64,000 nt of DNA from Exiguobacterium aurantiacum (GTDB taxonomy: Bacteria; Bacillota; Bacilli; Exiguobacteriales; Exiguobacteriaceae). The notes below the pieces were generated by a model, which made no database searches, was not told the DNA's origin, and saw only the letters and a program-made list of their open reading frames with translations. Below, in pieces: positions 7,737 through 30,307 of the stretch (positions are counted from its first letter, which is position 1; each line of letters begins with the position of its first letter). The translations under genes were made by a program, and so were the position numbers. The DNA is taken from NCBI RefSeq assembly GCF_024362205.1, contig NZ_CP101462.1, positions 586,501-650,500 on the forward strand, written 5' to 3'.

Positions 7737-9683
7737 ATTCAGGGACTATAAAAAGAAAATATTTGAAAAAGGTAAACCTTAAATTCCTGATATAAACTAT
7801 ATTTAGTTGATTTTATGATGATGGAGGAATTTAAGTGAACACATATTTTTCAAAGCTTTTAATCACGATGGGGATAGCTTTTTTGTCTTTTGGGAATCCG
7901 GTTTCAGCGAACGAAAGCGAACCGATGCCGAAACGGGTCATCGTTAAAGTGAAGGGAACGGAAACGGGTGACCTCGACGGTGAGATCATCTCGTCGAAAC
8001 AAGTCAAAAAACAGACGACGCTCACGCTCGAAGTGCCAAAGGGGACGTCCACCGCCGCCTTCATCAAAGAGTTGAAGCAAGAGGATCACGTGATCCATGT
8101 CGAAGAAGATCATTTGATGACATTGACGTATACACCGAGCGACATCTATTTCAGTTCCCAGACGCACCACAGCAACATCCAATCCGAATCCGCCTGGGAG
8201 CGATCGATCGGAACGAACGTGACCGTGGCCGTATTGGATAACGGGATTGATATGAATCATGAGGATTTAAAGGATAAAATCGTCAACCCGTACGACACCG
8301 TCTATGACTCGGCGTACACGTTGACGCCCGGGAAACACGGGACTCACGTCGCAGGGATCGTGGGCAGTCAAATGGATAACTACTATGGCGGGGTAGGGGT
8401 GGCGCCCGATGCGGCCATCATGCCGATTGATGTCTTTATCGGGGAATCGGCCTATACATCGGACGTGATTGAAGGCGTCTATCGCGCCGTCGACCAAGGG
8501 GCTGACATCATCAACATGAGTCTCGGGAGTTATAACTACAATTATTCCTTCCAACAAGCCATCAATTATGCGTATGCGCGAGGTGTCGCCGTCATCGCTG
8601 CTGCAGGGAATGATGCGACCAGTGAGGCGCATTACCCTTCCTCGTATAATCACGTCATCTCGGTCGGGTCGACGACCTCGTACGACACGTTGTCTTCGTT
8701 CTCGAACTACGGATGGAACATCGATGTCACGGCACCGGGAAGCCAGATCGTCTCGACGACGCCATACAATTCATACGGCTCTATGAGCGGGACATCGATG
8801 GCCTCACCGGTCGTCGCGGGTGTCGCCGCGTTGATCAAAGCGACCGAACCTGGTCTGTCGGTTGATGCGCTCACGGAACGCTTGACGAGTACCGCTGACG
8901 ATTTGGGAAGCCCGGGCCGAGATTACTTCTATGGCTATGGACGTGTCAATGCGAAAGAGGCGCTTCACATTCGTCAACTCGATCCGGTCCGTATCGATGA
9001 GTTTTCCGATGCGGCTAATGTCGTCACCGGCACGATCCCGGAACAAAATGGATACGGGACGGTGGTCTTGCACGATTCATTGGGGACGGTGATCGGTTCA
9101 GCGGATGGATTGTACGGCGGAGACCGCTTTAAAATCAATACGCCGCGCTACAAGGCAGGCACGACGTTGAGCGTGATTTATTATGATTCTTATGGGAACC
9201 ACAGCGAGCAAACCTGGTTTACGGTCGTTGATAAGACGGCCCCGATCAAACCGAGCGTGAACCCGGTCAGCGACGCCGTTGGCACGGTGAGCGGAAAAGC
9301 GGAGGCCGCGAGCACAGTGACCGTGAAAGCCGGCACGACGCTCCTCGGCCAATCTGCGACGAACAAAGATGGCACGTACACAGTGACGATTGGGAAACGG
9401 AAGGCCGGGACGGTCCTTCGCGTCGCGAGCACGGACGCTGCTGGTAACGTCAGCCCGATTGTGGAGACGACGGTCATCGACAAGACGGCGCCGTCTATCC
9501 CGACAGTACAGGAAGTGAGTGATCAAACGGTCAAGGTGTCCGGTACCGCGGAAGCGAACGCCCGGATTCAAATCAAACAAGGTGCGCGCGAAGTCGGCAC
9601 AGGAACGGTCCAAGCAGACGGGACGTTCCAAATCTCGATCGTCAAACAAGCCGTCGGTAACGTGTTGACAGTGACTGCCGTTG

Positions 9684-9688
9684 ACGGA
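9684..9688. repeat. target-site duplication, left copy (ACGGA)
   Basis: ACGGA directly precedes the IS21 left end and is repeated directly after the right end at 12054-12058. A 5-bp duplication is within the usual range for IS21-family insertion and shows a simple transposition event. Confidence 0.9.
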
Positions 9689-9698
9689 TGTGTAGTGC

Positions 9699-9755
9699 AA
9701 AATAGGAGTGCAGAAGTGTGCAACGGAAACGTACACAACTCTGCACTCCTATTTT
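9699..9755. terminator. hairpin inside IS21 left end
   Basis: AAAATAGGAGTGCAG (9699-9713) pairs perfectly with CTGCACTCCTATTTT (9741-9755), and a few more partly paired bases extend toward the loop. The run of T on the 3' arm makes it terminator-like. It would protect the transposase genes from read-through transcription out of the host protease gene. The role is inferred. Confidence 0.65.
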
Positions 9756-9829
9756 AGAAAAGAAAAAGGACTTGCCAGCAACCATAATCTCACCCTAACG
9801 TTTAAGTTGCGAAACAAGAACGTTAGGAG

Positions 9830-11275
9830 ATGGAAGGAATGCTAGCAATGTCCGATATCAATTGTATCAAATTTCTTAGAAACCACAAATCACATTCAAT
9901 CAATCGAATCGCTAAAAATCTAGACCTCAATTGGAGGACGGTAAAAAAATACGCGGATTCAGCTCAATTGCCAAGCGAAACCATTCGCCCCAAGAGGGGC
10001 ATGATGTACGGAACGAAATGGGGCGAGATGGTCGAAGATTGGTTGACAGAGGATCAGATGCTTCAGAAAAAGTTGAGACGAACGAATAAAAAGATTTATG
10101 AAACGCTGGTGGCGAACGGATTCGAGGGCTCTTATCGAACGGTGTGCAATTTCATCAAGAACTGGCATATGACAAGCGAAGAGGAAAACGACACAAGGCA
10201 TGAACGACTGCAGCACCCTCCGGGTGAGGCGCAGGTGGATTTCGGGACGATGGAAGTCGTCAAAGATAGTCATGCGGTCGATATGAAGTGCCTCGTCATG
10301 AGTCTGCCCTTCAGCAACCGTACGGCAGCCGTCGCCCTCCCCGCAGAAAACCAAGAGTGCTTCCTGACGGGACTCAAAATGCTTTTTGAAGAAATCGGCG
10401 GTGTGCCGCAACAACTCCGAATTGATAATCTCCCCGCGGCAGTCATCCAACCGCGAACGACGAGGGAAGAGGCGATCTATACCGATGCTTTCATGCAGTT
10501 CATGGCTCATTATGGATTCCAAGTCCAAAGCTGTAATCCTTACAGCGGGAACGAGAAAGGAAGTGTCGAGAACAAGGTCGGATACGTTCGATACAACTTT
10601 CTTGTCCCGGCCCCTGTCATGCATGATTACGATTCGATGAACCGACAGCTCGCAGTTTCCCTACGGGACGACATGGAGCGAGTCCATTACGAAAAGCATG
10701 TGCTGATCCGTGAGCTGTTCGAAAAAGAGCAGAGACATCTATTGCGATTACCTCAAGAAGACTTCCCCGTCTTCAAGGAAGAACTGTTCAAGGTGAACAA
10801 GTACGGCGAAATAACGATCGATAAGACGAAAGTCTTGATCCCTTCAGGGGCTCGTCATGGGCAAGTACGCGCCATCTTAAGGTGGGATTCGATGAAGATT
10901 CTCTCACTTCACGGAGAAATCCTTTACGAAGAAAAACGTCCCTACATGATGACAAAGCGTGCGCTCCCATGGGAAAACATCATCAGCACTTGGCACAAGA
11001 AGCCGAGAAGCTTCGGGCACTCCCGTTATTCCGAATATCTGCCGGGTAGAATCAAAGAATACCTGGGCGTACCCAACTTACTCGTTCGGCAGGAAAGACT
11101 GGCCTGGATCCGAGCCAAGCTCGCACTCTATCCAATCCTCGAGATCAATGAACGCCTATACGAGCTACTGAGCGAGGACGACGATCCAGCCGTGGTTGAG
11201 GACCATCCTTATGATGTGGATTGGAGCAAGTACGATAGCCTGAATCGGCCTTGGGGAGAAGGTGGTGCAGTATGA
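9830..11275 (+). CDS. istA: IS21 family transposase IstA
   Basis: A DDE transposase of up to 481 residues. The N-terminal helix-turn-helix (HKSHSINRIAKNLDLNWRTVKKY) binds the IS ends. The rve integrase core follows, with HPPGEAQVDFGTMEVV carrying the first Asp near residue 137, LRIDNLPAAVI carrying the second near 200, and the Glu near 240 in NPYSGNEKGSVENKVGYVR. All three catalytic residues are present and the length is normal for IstA. Three in-frame ATGs (9830, 9839, 9848) are possible starts. GGAAGGA before 9848 would favour the last one. The stop overlaps the istB start. Confidence 0.92.
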   Translation: MEGMLAMSDINCIKFLRNHKSHSINRIAKNLDLNWRTVKKYADSAQLPSETIRPKRGMMYGTKWGEMVEDWLTEDQMLQKKLRRTNKKIYETLVANGFEGSYRTVCNFIKNWHMTSEEENDTRHERLQHPPGEAQVDFGTMEVVKDSHAVDMKCLVMSLPFSNRTAAVALPAENQECFLTGLKMLFEEIGGVPQQLRIDNLPAAVIQPRTTREEAIYTDAFMQFMAHYGFQVQSCNPYSGNEKGSVENKVGYVRYNFLVPAPVMHDYDSMNRQLAVSLRDDMERVHYEKHVLIRELFEKEQRHLLRLPQEDFPVFKEELFKVNKYGEITIDKTKVLIPSGARHGQVRAILRWDSMKILSLHGEILYEEKRPYMMTKRALPWENIISTWHKKPRSFGHSRYSEYLPGRIKEYLGVPNLLVRQERLAWIRAKLALYPILEINERLYELLSEDDDPAVVEDHPYDVDWSKYDSLNRPWGEGGAV

Positions 11276-11988
11276 GCCTAAAAGAAATGTGCAAATCGCT
11301 CCGCCTTGCCTATGTCGCTGAAATCTATGAATCGATTCCAACGGAATCCCCTGAAAAGTTTCTCACGGAGCTTTTCTCGATGGAAATGCGCCTCCGCGAG
11401 GAAGCGAAAGCGCAACGGTTAATCAAAAAGGCTAAATTCATCAACAACAAGTCACTCGACGATTATCACTGGGGCAATCACATCTATTTCCCGAAGCATT
11501 TGGATAAGGACGAACTGACCTCATTGAATTTCGTCGAGCATTCACAGAACGTCGTTCTGACAGGGTCCCCGGGGACGGGAAAGACCCATTTGGCCATCGG
11601 ACTCGGGAGAGAAGCTTGTCACAAAGGTTATGAGGTGAGGTTCTTCCGGGTCTCCGAGCTCGTAGAGCAACTTAACAAGGCCTGGAGGGATGGGAAGCTG
11701 AGCAGCTTCCATTCACGTCTCGAATCGGCAGACCTGATCATTTTGGACGAGATGGGATACATCCCTCTCACAAAAGAATCTGCGGAACTCCTGTTCCATC
11801 TCATCACTGACTGGTATGAGCGAAAGAGCTTGATCATCACGTCCAACCTTGAGTTCAGCCAGTGGAATCGCATCTTTGGCGACGCGCGCCTAACGGCGGC
11901 ACTCGTCGATCGCGTCATCCATCACGCTCACATATTAAATTTCACAGGTGACAGTTATCGTGTCACGCATGCGTTGTCGAAACACTAA
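11272..11988 (+). CDS. istB: IS21 family helper ATPase IstB
   Basis: A 238-residue AAA+ ATPase of the IstB/DnaC family that loads IstA on target DNA. Walker A is GSPGTGKTHLAIGLG near residue 96 and Walker B is LIILDEMGY near 153. ITSNLEFSQW and the arginine-rich GDARLTAALVDRVIHHA close the core. The ATG at 11272 overlaps the istA stop as ATGA, and GGAGAAGG lies upstream. Earlier in-frame starts inside istA are unlikely. The stop is 65 bases before the IS right end. Confidence 0.92.
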   Translation: MSLKEMCKSLRLAYVAEIYESIPTESPEKFLTELFSMEMRLREEAKAQRLIKKAKFINNKSLDDYHWGNHIYFPKHLDKDELTSLNFVEHSQNVVLTGSPGTGKTHLAIGLGREACHKGYEVRFFRVSELVEQLNKAWRDGKLSSFHSRLESADLIILDEMGYIPLTKESAELLFHLITDWYERKSLIITSNLEFSQWNRIFGDARLTAALVDRVIHHAHILNFTGDSYRVTHALSKH

Positions 11989-12053
11989 AACCCAGCTGGC
12001 AAAGTTCTGTACTTTTCGTTGCATTATTGTGCACATTTGTATTGCAAAATACA

Positions 12054-12058
12054 ACGGA
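12054..12058. repeat. target-site duplication, right copy (ACGGA)
   Basis: Second copy of the 5-base duplication, directly after the ...ATACA right end of the IS21 element. The protease frame resumes with GCC GGC AAT at 12059. Confidence 0.9.
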
Positions 12059-12802
12059 GCCGGCAATACGAGTCAACCATTGTCCGTACGCGTCACTGAT
12101 AAGACGGCACCGGTCATTTCTGGCGTGTCGAATGTGATTGTAGAGGCAGGGCGGGCGTTTGATGTGAGACGAGGGCTGAGTGCGATAGATGGAACGGATG
12201 GCGATTTGACAGCGAATGTTGCCGTGTCTGGGGCGGTCGATGTCAAGAAGCCAGGTGTGTACGTCCTCACGTACACGGTGAAAGACCGCGCCGGCAATGA
12301 AGGGAAAGCGGTGCGTCGGATTACGGTGAAAGACACGGTCAAGCCGGTCCTAACAGGCGTCAAAGCGAAGACCATCCTTTGGAACAGCCGATTCGACGCC
12401 AAGGCAGGAATCACGGCGACAGACAACATTAATGGCAATCTAACGAAGATCATCAAAGTGTCAGGAACGGTCAACGTCAAAAAAGTTGGATCGTACAACC
12501 TGACGTACAGCGTCACGGATAAGTCAGGCAATACCACGACAGCCGTTCGAAAAATCGTGGTTAAAGACCACCTCAAGCCTGTCATTTCTGGTGCGAAGTC
12601 GAAGACGATCAAATTCAAATCGAACTTTAAACCGTTAACAGGCGTGACGGCGAAGGACAACGTGGATGGTACGTTGACGAAGTCGGTCAAAGTTACCGGC
12701 AAAGTGAACACGCAACGGAAAGGTGTCTATCCATTGACGTATACGGTCAAAGATAAAGCTGGTAACAGTGCCATTGTAAAAGTAAAGATTACTGTCAAAT
12801 AA
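12059..12802 (+). pseudogene. 3' remnant of the split protease: three Ig-like modules
   Basis: This stranded end encodes 247 residues. It holds three tandem modules of about 78 residues, each with TAPVISGV or KPVLTGV-like starts, an FDV/FDA...G motif, DGDLT or NGNLT, and a closing GVYxLTYTVKDxAGN. The pattern is that of the DUF5011/HYR-like bacterial surface Ig-like domain. Nothing suggests independent translation: the open frame upstream lies inside the IS and has no good ribosome site. It is the natural C-terminus of the 7835 protease. Confidence 0.85.
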
Positions 12803-27934: not shown

Positions 27935-30307
27935 TTAAAAGTATCTTAATCCAAATGCTCTGACATATCCATTCGAGTCATAATCTGCCCAAAATGTCGT
28001 CTTTTTTGTTGGTTTGTACTCCACAGTTCCTGCATTCTCATAGCTCATGATCAATTTATTACTTACAAAATACGCACTTGTATGGGTTTCATTTTTCGGG
28101 AACTTCCTATGGACCTTTGGTGCTCCAAGCGCGCTTGTCACTTCCGTCAATTTAACTTTTCGATTATCGAAAGATGGCATCGTCATGATGTCACCAATAT
28201 GATTCGGATATTTGTCATCGTATCCAATCGTCCCATAGATAAAAGGTCCTTTTACTTTTCCGAATACGCAACAGCCTGTTTGATAGTATCCATAAGATGC
28301 ATTTTTCCCTGTTATTTTCATGCGGTCATACAATTTTGCCTCTGCCTTATACATCGTGCCTTTTTTCGCAGCTGCGTAATGTTGCTTCAAATAAGTAGCA
28401 TTACTCGTTTTGAAGACAGTGACGGTAATTGTCTTTAGCTTGCTTTTATTTTTCGCAGCATCAACAGCATAGAGTGAGAACTTGGTCCCGCTTGTTTGTG
28501 TCTTGAATGTAAATTTGAAAAGACCTTTTGAGTCAGCTTTTGTACTAGCGACTTTTGTTTTCCCTTTATAGAGGTACACCAATGCCTTGGCTTCCGTTTT
28601 TCCCGTCAGGCTCGTGCTTTTCGTATTTACACTACTAGATGTTGGTGTAGGAGGTGCCGTTTTATCTGTTACTTTAACAAGTACCGACTTGCTCTTGTTT
28701 TTAGCGGCATCTATTACATAAACCGTCAATGTGGATCCTGCTTTTTGTTTAGCTAGTTTTACTGAAAATTTTCCGGAAACAGATGTCGCTTGACCCACTT
28801 TTTTGCTTCCGTTCATAACGATGACCGTGCTTTTACTCTCAGCTGTACCAGTAAGTACAGTCATCGCATCAGAGAACGCTGAGACTTTTGGCGCGACCGG
28901 AGCCGTTTTATCGATGACTTTAAACGTTGTCACGGAGCTTCTGTTCTTTTGGGTGTCTTCTACCGCTACATAGAGAGTGGAGCCGCCTGTTTGTTTTGGA
29001 ACTGGAATTGTAAACTTGCCTTTTTGACTTTGTTTGAGTTGGCCTATGACCTGTTTTGAAGCATTGTATACGTAAATAGTGCCTCCTGGGACATCATATG
29101 GAAGTTGTCCCGTCACTTGCGTTGCTTGATCTGTAAATGCGTCCACGACAACTGGACCGTACATTGACGTATTGACGGCTGCTGACGCATTGACACGACC
29201 GTATCCGTAATCGTCATCTTTTCCTCGTGCTCCGAGATCATCCGCCGTATCAATCAAACGTTTAACGATTTGATCGCCTGTTAAAGAGGGGGCGTTCGCT
29301 TTAATTAGTGCTGCAACACCGGCGACGACAGGAGATGCCATGGAAGTTCCGCTCATCACACCGTAGCTATCATAGGGTAATGTCGAGTAAATAGAGCTAC
29401 CTGGGGCTGAAATATCAATTGTCGACCCATAGTTTGAGAAATAAGACGGTGAATCCCATGATGTCGTCGAGGCAACGGATACCACATGTTCGTAAGCGGC
29501 AGGGTACCATGGATCGTCTGTCGCATCGTTTCCAGCTGCTGCAACGATCACTACTCCAGCATCATGTGCGTATTTAATAGCTTCTTGATTTAACCAGCTG
29601 TAATAATAACTACCTAAACTCATATTAATGATGTCAGCGCCATTGTCTACCGCATAATAAATGGCTTTGATGACATCTGAAGAGTAAGCGCCGTCCCCTT
29701 CAAATACATTGATAGGCATGATTTTTGTTTTTGGAGCAACTCCTGCTCCTCCTGTGTAATTATCAATTTGACCAGCGATGATTCCCGCGACGTGTGTTCC
29801 GTGTTCGCCCACTGGAATTGTCTCATCCCAACCTTCAACCATGTCAAAGGGATGAATGATGTTATTTTCTAAATCCTCATGATATAAATCAATTCCATCA
29901 TCAATCACAGCAACAATGACGTTTGTCGATCCCTTTGTTCTATTCCAAGCCTCTTTTGTCTCAATATTTTTGTGGTGTGATTGAAGAAATAAATCCGAAT
30001 CATTTGGTGTATAAGCGTGTTGTAAAAGATAATCAGGTTCTACTCTTACTACTTCTGGTTGGGACTTTAACTCACTAATATATTCACTCAACGTTTTCTC
30101 TGTCGGTACGTCTACTGTATAAATTGCTGAAGAATTACTTGTTTTCTTTACAAGCATTTCTTGTGATGTGTTTGTCACATTATTTCCTTTAACTTGAACA
30201 ATGACTCGATCAATTTGTTCTTTAGTACCTTCCGCACTCGTAACATCTGACCAACCTATAGCCCCTGATACAAAAAGAAGACCAATTGCCCATTTCGCCC
30301 ACATCAT
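27935..30307 (-). CDS. secreted subtilisin-like (S8) protease with Ig-like modules
   Basis: A 790-residue secreted serine protease, paralogous to the split gene at 7835. A signal peptide ends near TSAEG; an I9-like propeptide (RVIVQVKGNN) follows. Triad residues lie in VAVIDDGIDLYHED (Asp), VGEHGTHVAGII (His) and VMSGTSMASPVV (Ser). Three Ig-like modules beginning DKTAP (about 395-640) come next. The last 150 residues form a domain not shared with the paralogue: YLKQHYAAAKKGTMYKAE through YDSNGYVRAFGLRYF, with a YYQTGCCVFGKVKG segment. I do not recognise that domain. GGGAGG lies upstream of MMW. The coding DNA is more AT-rich than the gal operon beside it. Confidence 0.9.
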   Translation of the reverse strand: MMWAKWAIGLLFVSGAIGWSDVTSAEGTKEQIDRVIVQVKGNNVTNTSQEMLVKKTSNSSAIYTVDVPTEKTLSEYISELKSQPEVVRVEPDYLLQHAYTPNDSDLFLQSHHKNIETKEAWNRTKGSTNVIVAVIDDGIDLYHEDLENNIIHPFDMVEGWDETIPVGEHGTHVAGIIAGQIDNYTGGAGVAPKTKIMPINVFEGDGAYSSDVIKAIYYAVDNGADIINMSLGSYYYSWLNQEAIKYAHDAGVVIVAAAGNDATDDPWYPAAYEHVVSVASTTSWDSPSYFSNYGSTIDISAPGSSIYSTLPYDSYGVMSGTSMASPVVAGVAALIKANAPSLTGDQIVKRLIDTADDLGARGKDDDYGYGRVNASAAVNTSMYGPVVVDAFTDQATQVTGQLPYDVPGGTIYVYNASKQVIGQLKQSQKGKFTIPVPKQTGGSTLYVAVEDTQKNRSSVTTFKVIDKTAPVAPKVSAFSDAMTVLTGTAESKSTVIVMNGSKKVGQATSVSGKFSVKLAKQKAGSTLTVYVIDAAKNKSKSVLVKVTDKTAPPTPTSSSVNTKSTSLTGKTEAKALVYLYKGKTKVASTKADSKGLFKFTFKTQTSGTKFSLYAVDAAKNKSKLKTITVTVFKTSNATYLKQHYAAAKKGTMYKAEAKLYDRMKITGKNASYGYYQTGCCVFGKVKGPFIYGTIGYDDKYPNHIGDIMTMPSFDNRKVKLTEVTSALGAPKVHRKFPKNETHTSAYFVSNKLIMSYENAGTVEYKPTKKTTFWADYDSNGYVRAFGLRYF

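Follow-up and report, generated by a model that had tools for sequence, protein, structure and literature searches.

What keeps a transposon from being activated by the transcription of a gene that it has entered? The question is raised by a 64,000-nucleotide stretch of the Exiguobacterium aurantiacum chromosome (hereafter the window), in which a complete IS21-family element lies within the gene for a secreted S8 protease. The element points in the same direction as the protease gene, so that protease RNA would enter it, and the locus is thus a clean case of an arrangement in which read-through is expected. Its main parts are the following.

7835-9757, plus strand: truncated secreted S8 protease, 640 amino acids, with the catalytic domain and three Big_6 stretches, the last incomplete
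9684-9688, no strand: left copy of the target duplication ACGGA
9689-12053, plus strand: IS21-family element, 2365 bp (NCBIfam matches, duplication, copies in the genome)
9830-11275, plus strand: istA, 481 amino acids from the first ATG (open frame, NCBIfam)
11272-11988, plus strand: istB, the IS21 helper ATPase, 237 amino acids, with its ATG at 11272 (open frame, NCBIfam)
12054-12058, no strand: right copy of the target duplication ACGGA
12059-12802, plus strand: severed 3' part of the protease gene, 247 codons, with three Bact_surface_Ig-like stretches

Assignment to the IS21 family follows from an IstA transposase and an IstB helper ATPase in tandem, both above their NCBIfam cut-offs (246 bits against 160 for the transposase, 255 against 200 for the helper), and from a short target duplication, 5 bp long at every one of the six genomic copies. 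A 5-bp duplication is also given for IS21 in an excerpt of PMC10122671. The start of istB overlaps the stop of istA in an ATGA overlap, and the ends of the element are related inverted repeats whose first 56 bases align with mismatches and one gap. The original prediction had reported the ACGGA duplication, intact istA and istB, and exact in-frame repair to an 865-residue product; all three are confirmed, with 618 codons to the left and 247 to the right of the element sharing one frame. With its ATGA overlap, similar ends and 5-bp duplications, the organisation seen here is no different from that of the family at large (type element IS21; IS5376 in structural work), and the nearest named copy, on Exiguobacterium arabatum plasmid NC_010608.1, is 94.9% identical to the window element. 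The element is complete and probably still mobile. As such, an IS21 insertion in a secreted protease gene is ordinary.

The insertion had been predicted to be young, and a count of the element's copies in the genome had been proposed as a check. There are six in the genome (3.15 Mb, two contigs), all on contig C1, with istA and istB open in every one and a perfect 5-bp duplication at each (ACGGA, ACAGA, GCCGT, CAACC, TCTAC and TATGG). Over 2365 bp, three are identical to the window copy, making four identical copies, while one has 5 differences and one has 120. Related element DNA occurs in 5 of 19 genomes of the genus, the source genome counted. A search of the same number of genomes, again including the source, found close orthologues of the protease in two others, both uninterrupted. 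No relaxed constraint is seen in the severed part of the protease against these two orthologues: its dN/dS is 0.11 and 0.09, compared with 0.15 and 0.10 in the catalytic part and 0.17 and 0.22 in the first Big_6 modules. Because the duplications are perfect, four copies are identical, the orthologues are uninterrupted and the severed part remains constrained, the sequences support an insertion that is young beside the divergence of the species. That it is instead old and fixed is extremely improbable. The genome collection holds one genome per species, and hence no sibling strain, which gives the idea of an old insertion what room it has; we reject it because all six copies have perfect duplications and unbroken istA and istB frames, because four of the six are identical, and because the severed part is still under constraint.

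Five of the six copies, the window copy included, interrupt a reading frame. One identical copy (L062, G000:C1:947427-949791, minus strand) breaks the coding sequence of a GajB-like helicase (PADLOC, 623 bits), next to a frame that resembles GajA by eye only; through that insertion the strain may lack a working Gabija-type defence system. Another identical copy (L061, G000:C1:2162176-2164540) disrupts the gene of an AbiU-like protein with an AIPR domain (Pfam 120 bits, PADLOC E 1.7e-37), which from these matches is likely a second phage-defence gene struck by the element. The others lie in a Big_6 surface-protein gene (L063, G000:C1:544533), in a frame resembling a tyrosine recombinase by eye (L065, G000:C1:2085016) and among short tandem repeats outside long frames (L064, G000:C1:2318978). 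In a relative, a metagenome-assembled contig (NZ_JAFIFD010000019.1, L066 1-140) starts with the right end of an element of the same kind, about 1.1 kb upstream of that relative's uninterrupted protease gene.

The host gene has paid for this insertion with its 3' end. The frame has 865 codons without the element and yields a product of 640 residues with it, the predicted truncated size; the last 22 (residues 619-640) are read from the element and include two cysteines. The protease belongs to family S8 by its Asp-His-Ser motifs within a Peptidase_S8 domain (Pfam 211 bits, cut-off 21.8). These motifs begin at residues 135 (DNGID), 168 (HGTHVAG) and 319 (GTSMASP) and are all complete, in agreement with the predicted retention of the catalytic triad. 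A signal peptide and a propeptide are judged present by eye only. Where two Ig-like modules had been said to remain, Pfam instead gives three Big_6 stretches, the third of which is without its end in the alignment. The expected loss of the last three modules holds, in that three Bact_surface_Ig-like stretches (Pfam) lie beyond the insertion. The same domain order and catalytic motifs characterise S8 (subtilisin-like) secreted proteases with Ig-like modules, from which the present protease differs in being truncated by an element and in a Big_6 number that varies among its orthologues. Its named relatives comprise one close orthologue (from a metagenome-assembled Exiguobacterium) and two distant proteases.

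The two orthologues have 781 and 1029 residues and are 90 and 77% identical in the first part. By alignment they contain two and five Big_6 modules, against three here, while three end modules are present in the window protease frame and in both orthologues. Since the end modules are constant where the Big_6 number differs, the part lost through the insertion was, by this comparison, conserved. Synonymous divergence is uneven along the gene (against L002, 0.28 in the catalytic and 0.83 in the 3' part; against L003, 1.20 and 0.75), which suggests past recombination within it.

As read from its present sequence, then, the gene encodes a 640-residue protein with the catalytic domain and without the three conserved end modules. 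Quite possibly the protease has simply been lost, the broken module leading to degradation and the gene becoming a pseudogene: the third Big_6 stretch breaks off short of its end and runs on into 22 foreign residues with two cysteines, and a second secreted S8 protease is encoded nearby. Set against such a loss are the complete catalytic domain and the natural variability of the Big_6 number in orthologues. The truncation is compatible with secretion of a shortened enzyme as well as with degradation of the product. The further idea of the original prediction, that the enzyme is now released rather than retained at the wall, does not stand. The 865-residue frame contains no LPXTG-like motif of the sort that marks a sortase anchor, and the Pfam and NCBIfam matches of either protease part include no wall-binding family, so retention of the 865-residue form is itself unsupported. 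The second protease (window 28418-30256, minus strand) has 791 residues, is open, carries related modules and is 47% identical; a counterpart lies near the orthologue in G015.

An answer to the opening question is suggested by the element's left end. The RNA from 9684 to 9850 is predicted to fold at -59.3 kcal/mol, compared with -32.9 (sd 3.7) for shuffles, forming two structures. The parts of this leader, arms and stem-loops being taken from the fold prediction, are as follows.

9699-9755, plus strand: left-end hairpin, a 16-pair stem with an inner loop, overlapping the terminal repeats
9768-9779, plus strand: 5' arm of a predicted start-hiding stem, containing a putative -35 (TTGCCA, 9772-9777)
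9788-9832, plus strand: inner stem-loop of the leader
9796-9801, plus strand: putative -10 (TAACGT), 18 nt after the -35, the total being 8/12 to consensus
9841-9853, plus strand: 3' arm of the stem, containing the conserved istA start codon at 9848

The istA start region of the window is 0.79 paired in the predicted fold, a value that none of 40 shuffles equals. Further in-frame istA ATGs stand at 9830 and 9839. Two in-frame start codons 9 nt apart (window 9839-9850) both lie in or next to the 3' arm, and either may be the true start; an in-frame start codon 9 nt before the conserved one is found in all 36 clusters of Bacilli leaders (ATG in 33, GTG in 2, TTG in 1). All three frames that enter the element from the left run into stops before the stem (at 9693, 9703 and 9755), so ribosomes of the host gene would halt before reaching it. 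A search of 9600-12200 against Rfam release 15, with E up to 5, left the leader unmatched and yielded two chance-level matches only, both within istB on the minus strand. The left-end hairpin recurs at this place in many relatives (L071-L097), with differing sequence and overlapping the terminal repeats. We considered it as a terminator on account of its suggestive shape but do not claim this, as no terminator was called there by the scan and an A-rich stretch lies 3' of it in most of the relatives displayed. It may be a transposase site or an RNA element.

The predicted pairing is not peculiar to this copy. Relatives were chosen by IstA similarity alone, from Bacilli searches with matches in 118 of 299, 149 of 398 and 151 of 398 genomes (partly shared between searches; 30 loci each), to which 20 further regions and eight named plasmid copies were added. 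Left out of the first 30 loci were L077, L082 and L096 (match without the N terminus), L090 (start pairing 0.75) and L085 (the same place used as L102); 21 of the 60 later loci were used, the rest being repeated places or lacking the N terminus. The final set comprises 74 leaders in 50 clusters, and the set of 36 Bacilli clusters leaves aside the eight named plasmid copies as well as L173-L178, which are distant and whose start codon is uncertain. Across the 74 leaders, start-region pairing averages 0.78, against about 0.52 in shuffles, although single leaders are often equalled by shuffles (among the 36 clusters by up to 14 of 40, in L122), and L173 and L174 do not pair beyond shuffles. In the 36 Bacilli clusters the mean is 0.80, and 32 of them exceed 0.7. 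Such pairing is on average absent from other starts: host starts of the window average 0.53, with 6 of 48 above 0.7, and istB starts also average 0.53, with 3 of 17 above 0.7, this control covering those of the 36 clusters in which istA and istB are complete in the stored stretch. The Mann-Whitney p values (2.7e-12 against host starts, 3.8e-7 against istB) are descriptive, since the elements are related.

The two arms also change together. Within the 36 clusters, the mean pairing energy is -15.6 kcal/mol for the two arms of one leader, compared with -9.7 when arms are swapped, and none of 20000 permutations is as low, although only 9 clusters have their own arm as the best partner of all. Because subgroups of leaders pair in shifted registers, pairs were counted on 17 leaders of one register. 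Among these, 93.1% of cells pair, against 14.7 to 54.9% when the arms are slid, a percentage that is favoured by the picking of these leaders for their register; the arm-swap test and the host and istB controls are independent of this selection. Seventeen cells are changed on both sides, against 5.7 in shuffles. Two-sided change affects 4 of the 12 pairs, one of them being A-U in 8 leaders, G-C in 6 and C-G in 3. The number of pairs with double change exceeds shuffles modestly (20 of 500 reach it), and the count of pair types in the 17 leaders is not above that of shuffles, 476 of 500 of which equal it. A mixed alignment of 24 sequences yielded no common structure in RNAalifold.

A covariance model built from the 17 leaders matches in 59 of 398 Bacilli genomes (E 0.01, strict filters). 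An IstA-like frame begins at the modelled start codon in 26 of the 30 places fetched. In the remaining four the frame is short, and three of these (L195, L200 and L211) resemble decayed istA starts by eye. Several of the 30 places belong to the training set or lie close to it. Some weak matches fall on the opposite strand at the same places, as a near-palindrome would give. Beyond the Bacilli, the start region of IS21 itself, from an E. coli plasmid, is 0.92 paired, with no shuffle of 40 as high. Values for Streptomyces griseorubiginosus (0.88, via a short local hairpin), Roseomonas (0.77) and Phyllobacterium (0.76) are reached by 2, 6 and 8 of 40 shuffles, respectively. For Acetobacter, Streptomyces NBC_01220, Sphingobium and Pseudomonadaceae T75, and thus for four of the eight copies from other phyla, the pairing does not stand out from shuffled sequence, 14 to 28 of 40 shuffles reaching it. 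Conservation of the leader pairing is well supported by these comparisons; its spread outside the Bacilli is uncertain.

A palindromic end may of course matter as DNA, with the inverted repeats serving as IstA binding sites or an operator at the left end and the start codon lying inside them by position only. Both strands fold equally well, and the plus strand is the more stable in 17 of 36 clusters (p 0.64, no difference), so that the pairing is conserved but the data themselves do not single out RNA as what matters. Furthermore, IstA binds the repeated end sequences and has been proposed to cover promoter boxes there (PMC10122671, excerpt). We nonetheless consider this reading improbable, since constancy of sequence is what one would expect of a protein site: in 32 of the 36 clusters the 3' arm stays at the start codon while its sequence changes together with that of the 5' arm.

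The pattern TTGnnn-16..18 nt-TAnnnT is found 70-86 nt before the start in 27 of the 36 clusters, compared with 2 on the reverse complement and a mean of 1.3 in shuffles, and its TTG is located at the 5' arm of the stem. Because of this placement, RNA begun inside the element would be without the hiding arm. When internally begun RNA is modelled from about 7 nt after the pattern, and hence without the 5' arm, the predicted cost of opening the start site in the 27 leaders falls to 5.4 kcal/mol from 15.1 in the long RNA, L073 being the one leader in which it rises. In a host control, cutting 48 host genes to 41 nt upstream changed the opening cost from 7.3 to 6.2 kcal/mol. The pattern in the window, TTGCCA-18-TAACGT, is weak, and a promoter scan listed none on the plus strand, this pattern included.

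The fold could also be a general brake on IstA translation, acting in every istA RNA, that from tandem junctions included. The stem is kept in the 9 clusters of 36 that are without the promoter pattern, and the IS21 promoters described in an excerpt of PMC10122671 lie in the terminal repeats; in tandem arrays a strong promoter is reported to arise there from the right repeat's -35 box and the left repeat's -10 box. RNA from such a junction would carry the whole leader, which favours either a general brake or a leaky shield. The placement of the pattern in the other 27 clusters, such that RNA begun there would be without the arm, speaks against a brake on every istA RNA, and we hold it to be rather unlikely.

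The reading that we prefer is a shield against read-through. In RNA entering from the protease gene, the istA start region (9841-9853) would be sequestered in a stem with the 5' arm (9768-9779), hindering translation of the transposase, whereas RNA from the putative internal promoter (-35 at 9772, -10 at 9796) would be without the arm and leave the start open. The fold would then serve to stop activation of the transposase by outside transcription, here from the protease gene. From the pattern and the models above we infer a working promoter, formation of the fold in living cells, and the protective use just described. A recent insertion carrying an IS10/IS50-like fold-back shield is, taken as a whole, the best explanation of the locus, and one in which we have moderate confidence. 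More tentatively, it is quite conceivable that Bacilli IS21 elements, and perhaps IS21 itself, have in common an undescribed leader whose hiding arm overlaps an internal -35, so that the transposase is translatable only from internally begun RNA, as a family-wide shield that arose apart from that of IS10 and IS50.

As regards earlier descriptions, a start-hiding leader is not mentioned in the excerpts of PMC10122671 and PMC11208146, and nothing on an IS21 leader fold appears in those of PMC7314908, PMC4265352, PMC5006887 and PMC11208146. We found no report of such a fold in open PubMed Central papers, and an earlier description in older subscription papers is possible. Should the leader act in this way, it would account for the ability of IS21-family elements to reside in expressed genes without being activated by them, and would add a short, testable control element to a widespread family of transposons that now serves structural work as a model of AAA+-assisted transposition.

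Transposase mRNAs of IS10 and IS50 are protected from outside transcription by folding back. The leader described here would resemble them in that read-through RNA would hide the transposase start and internally begun RNA would not. It differs in having an unrelated transposase and sequence, in a hiding arm that overlaps the putative -35, and in being known from prediction. ISPpu9, a different element from the IS21-family one studied here, offers a further likeness, as expression of its transposase is linked to the structure of the mRNA leader, a 5'-UTR structure being accompanied by two small RNAs (PMC8450116, excerpt). By the mechanism that we infer, the IS21 leader would be a variant of an already known type of control.
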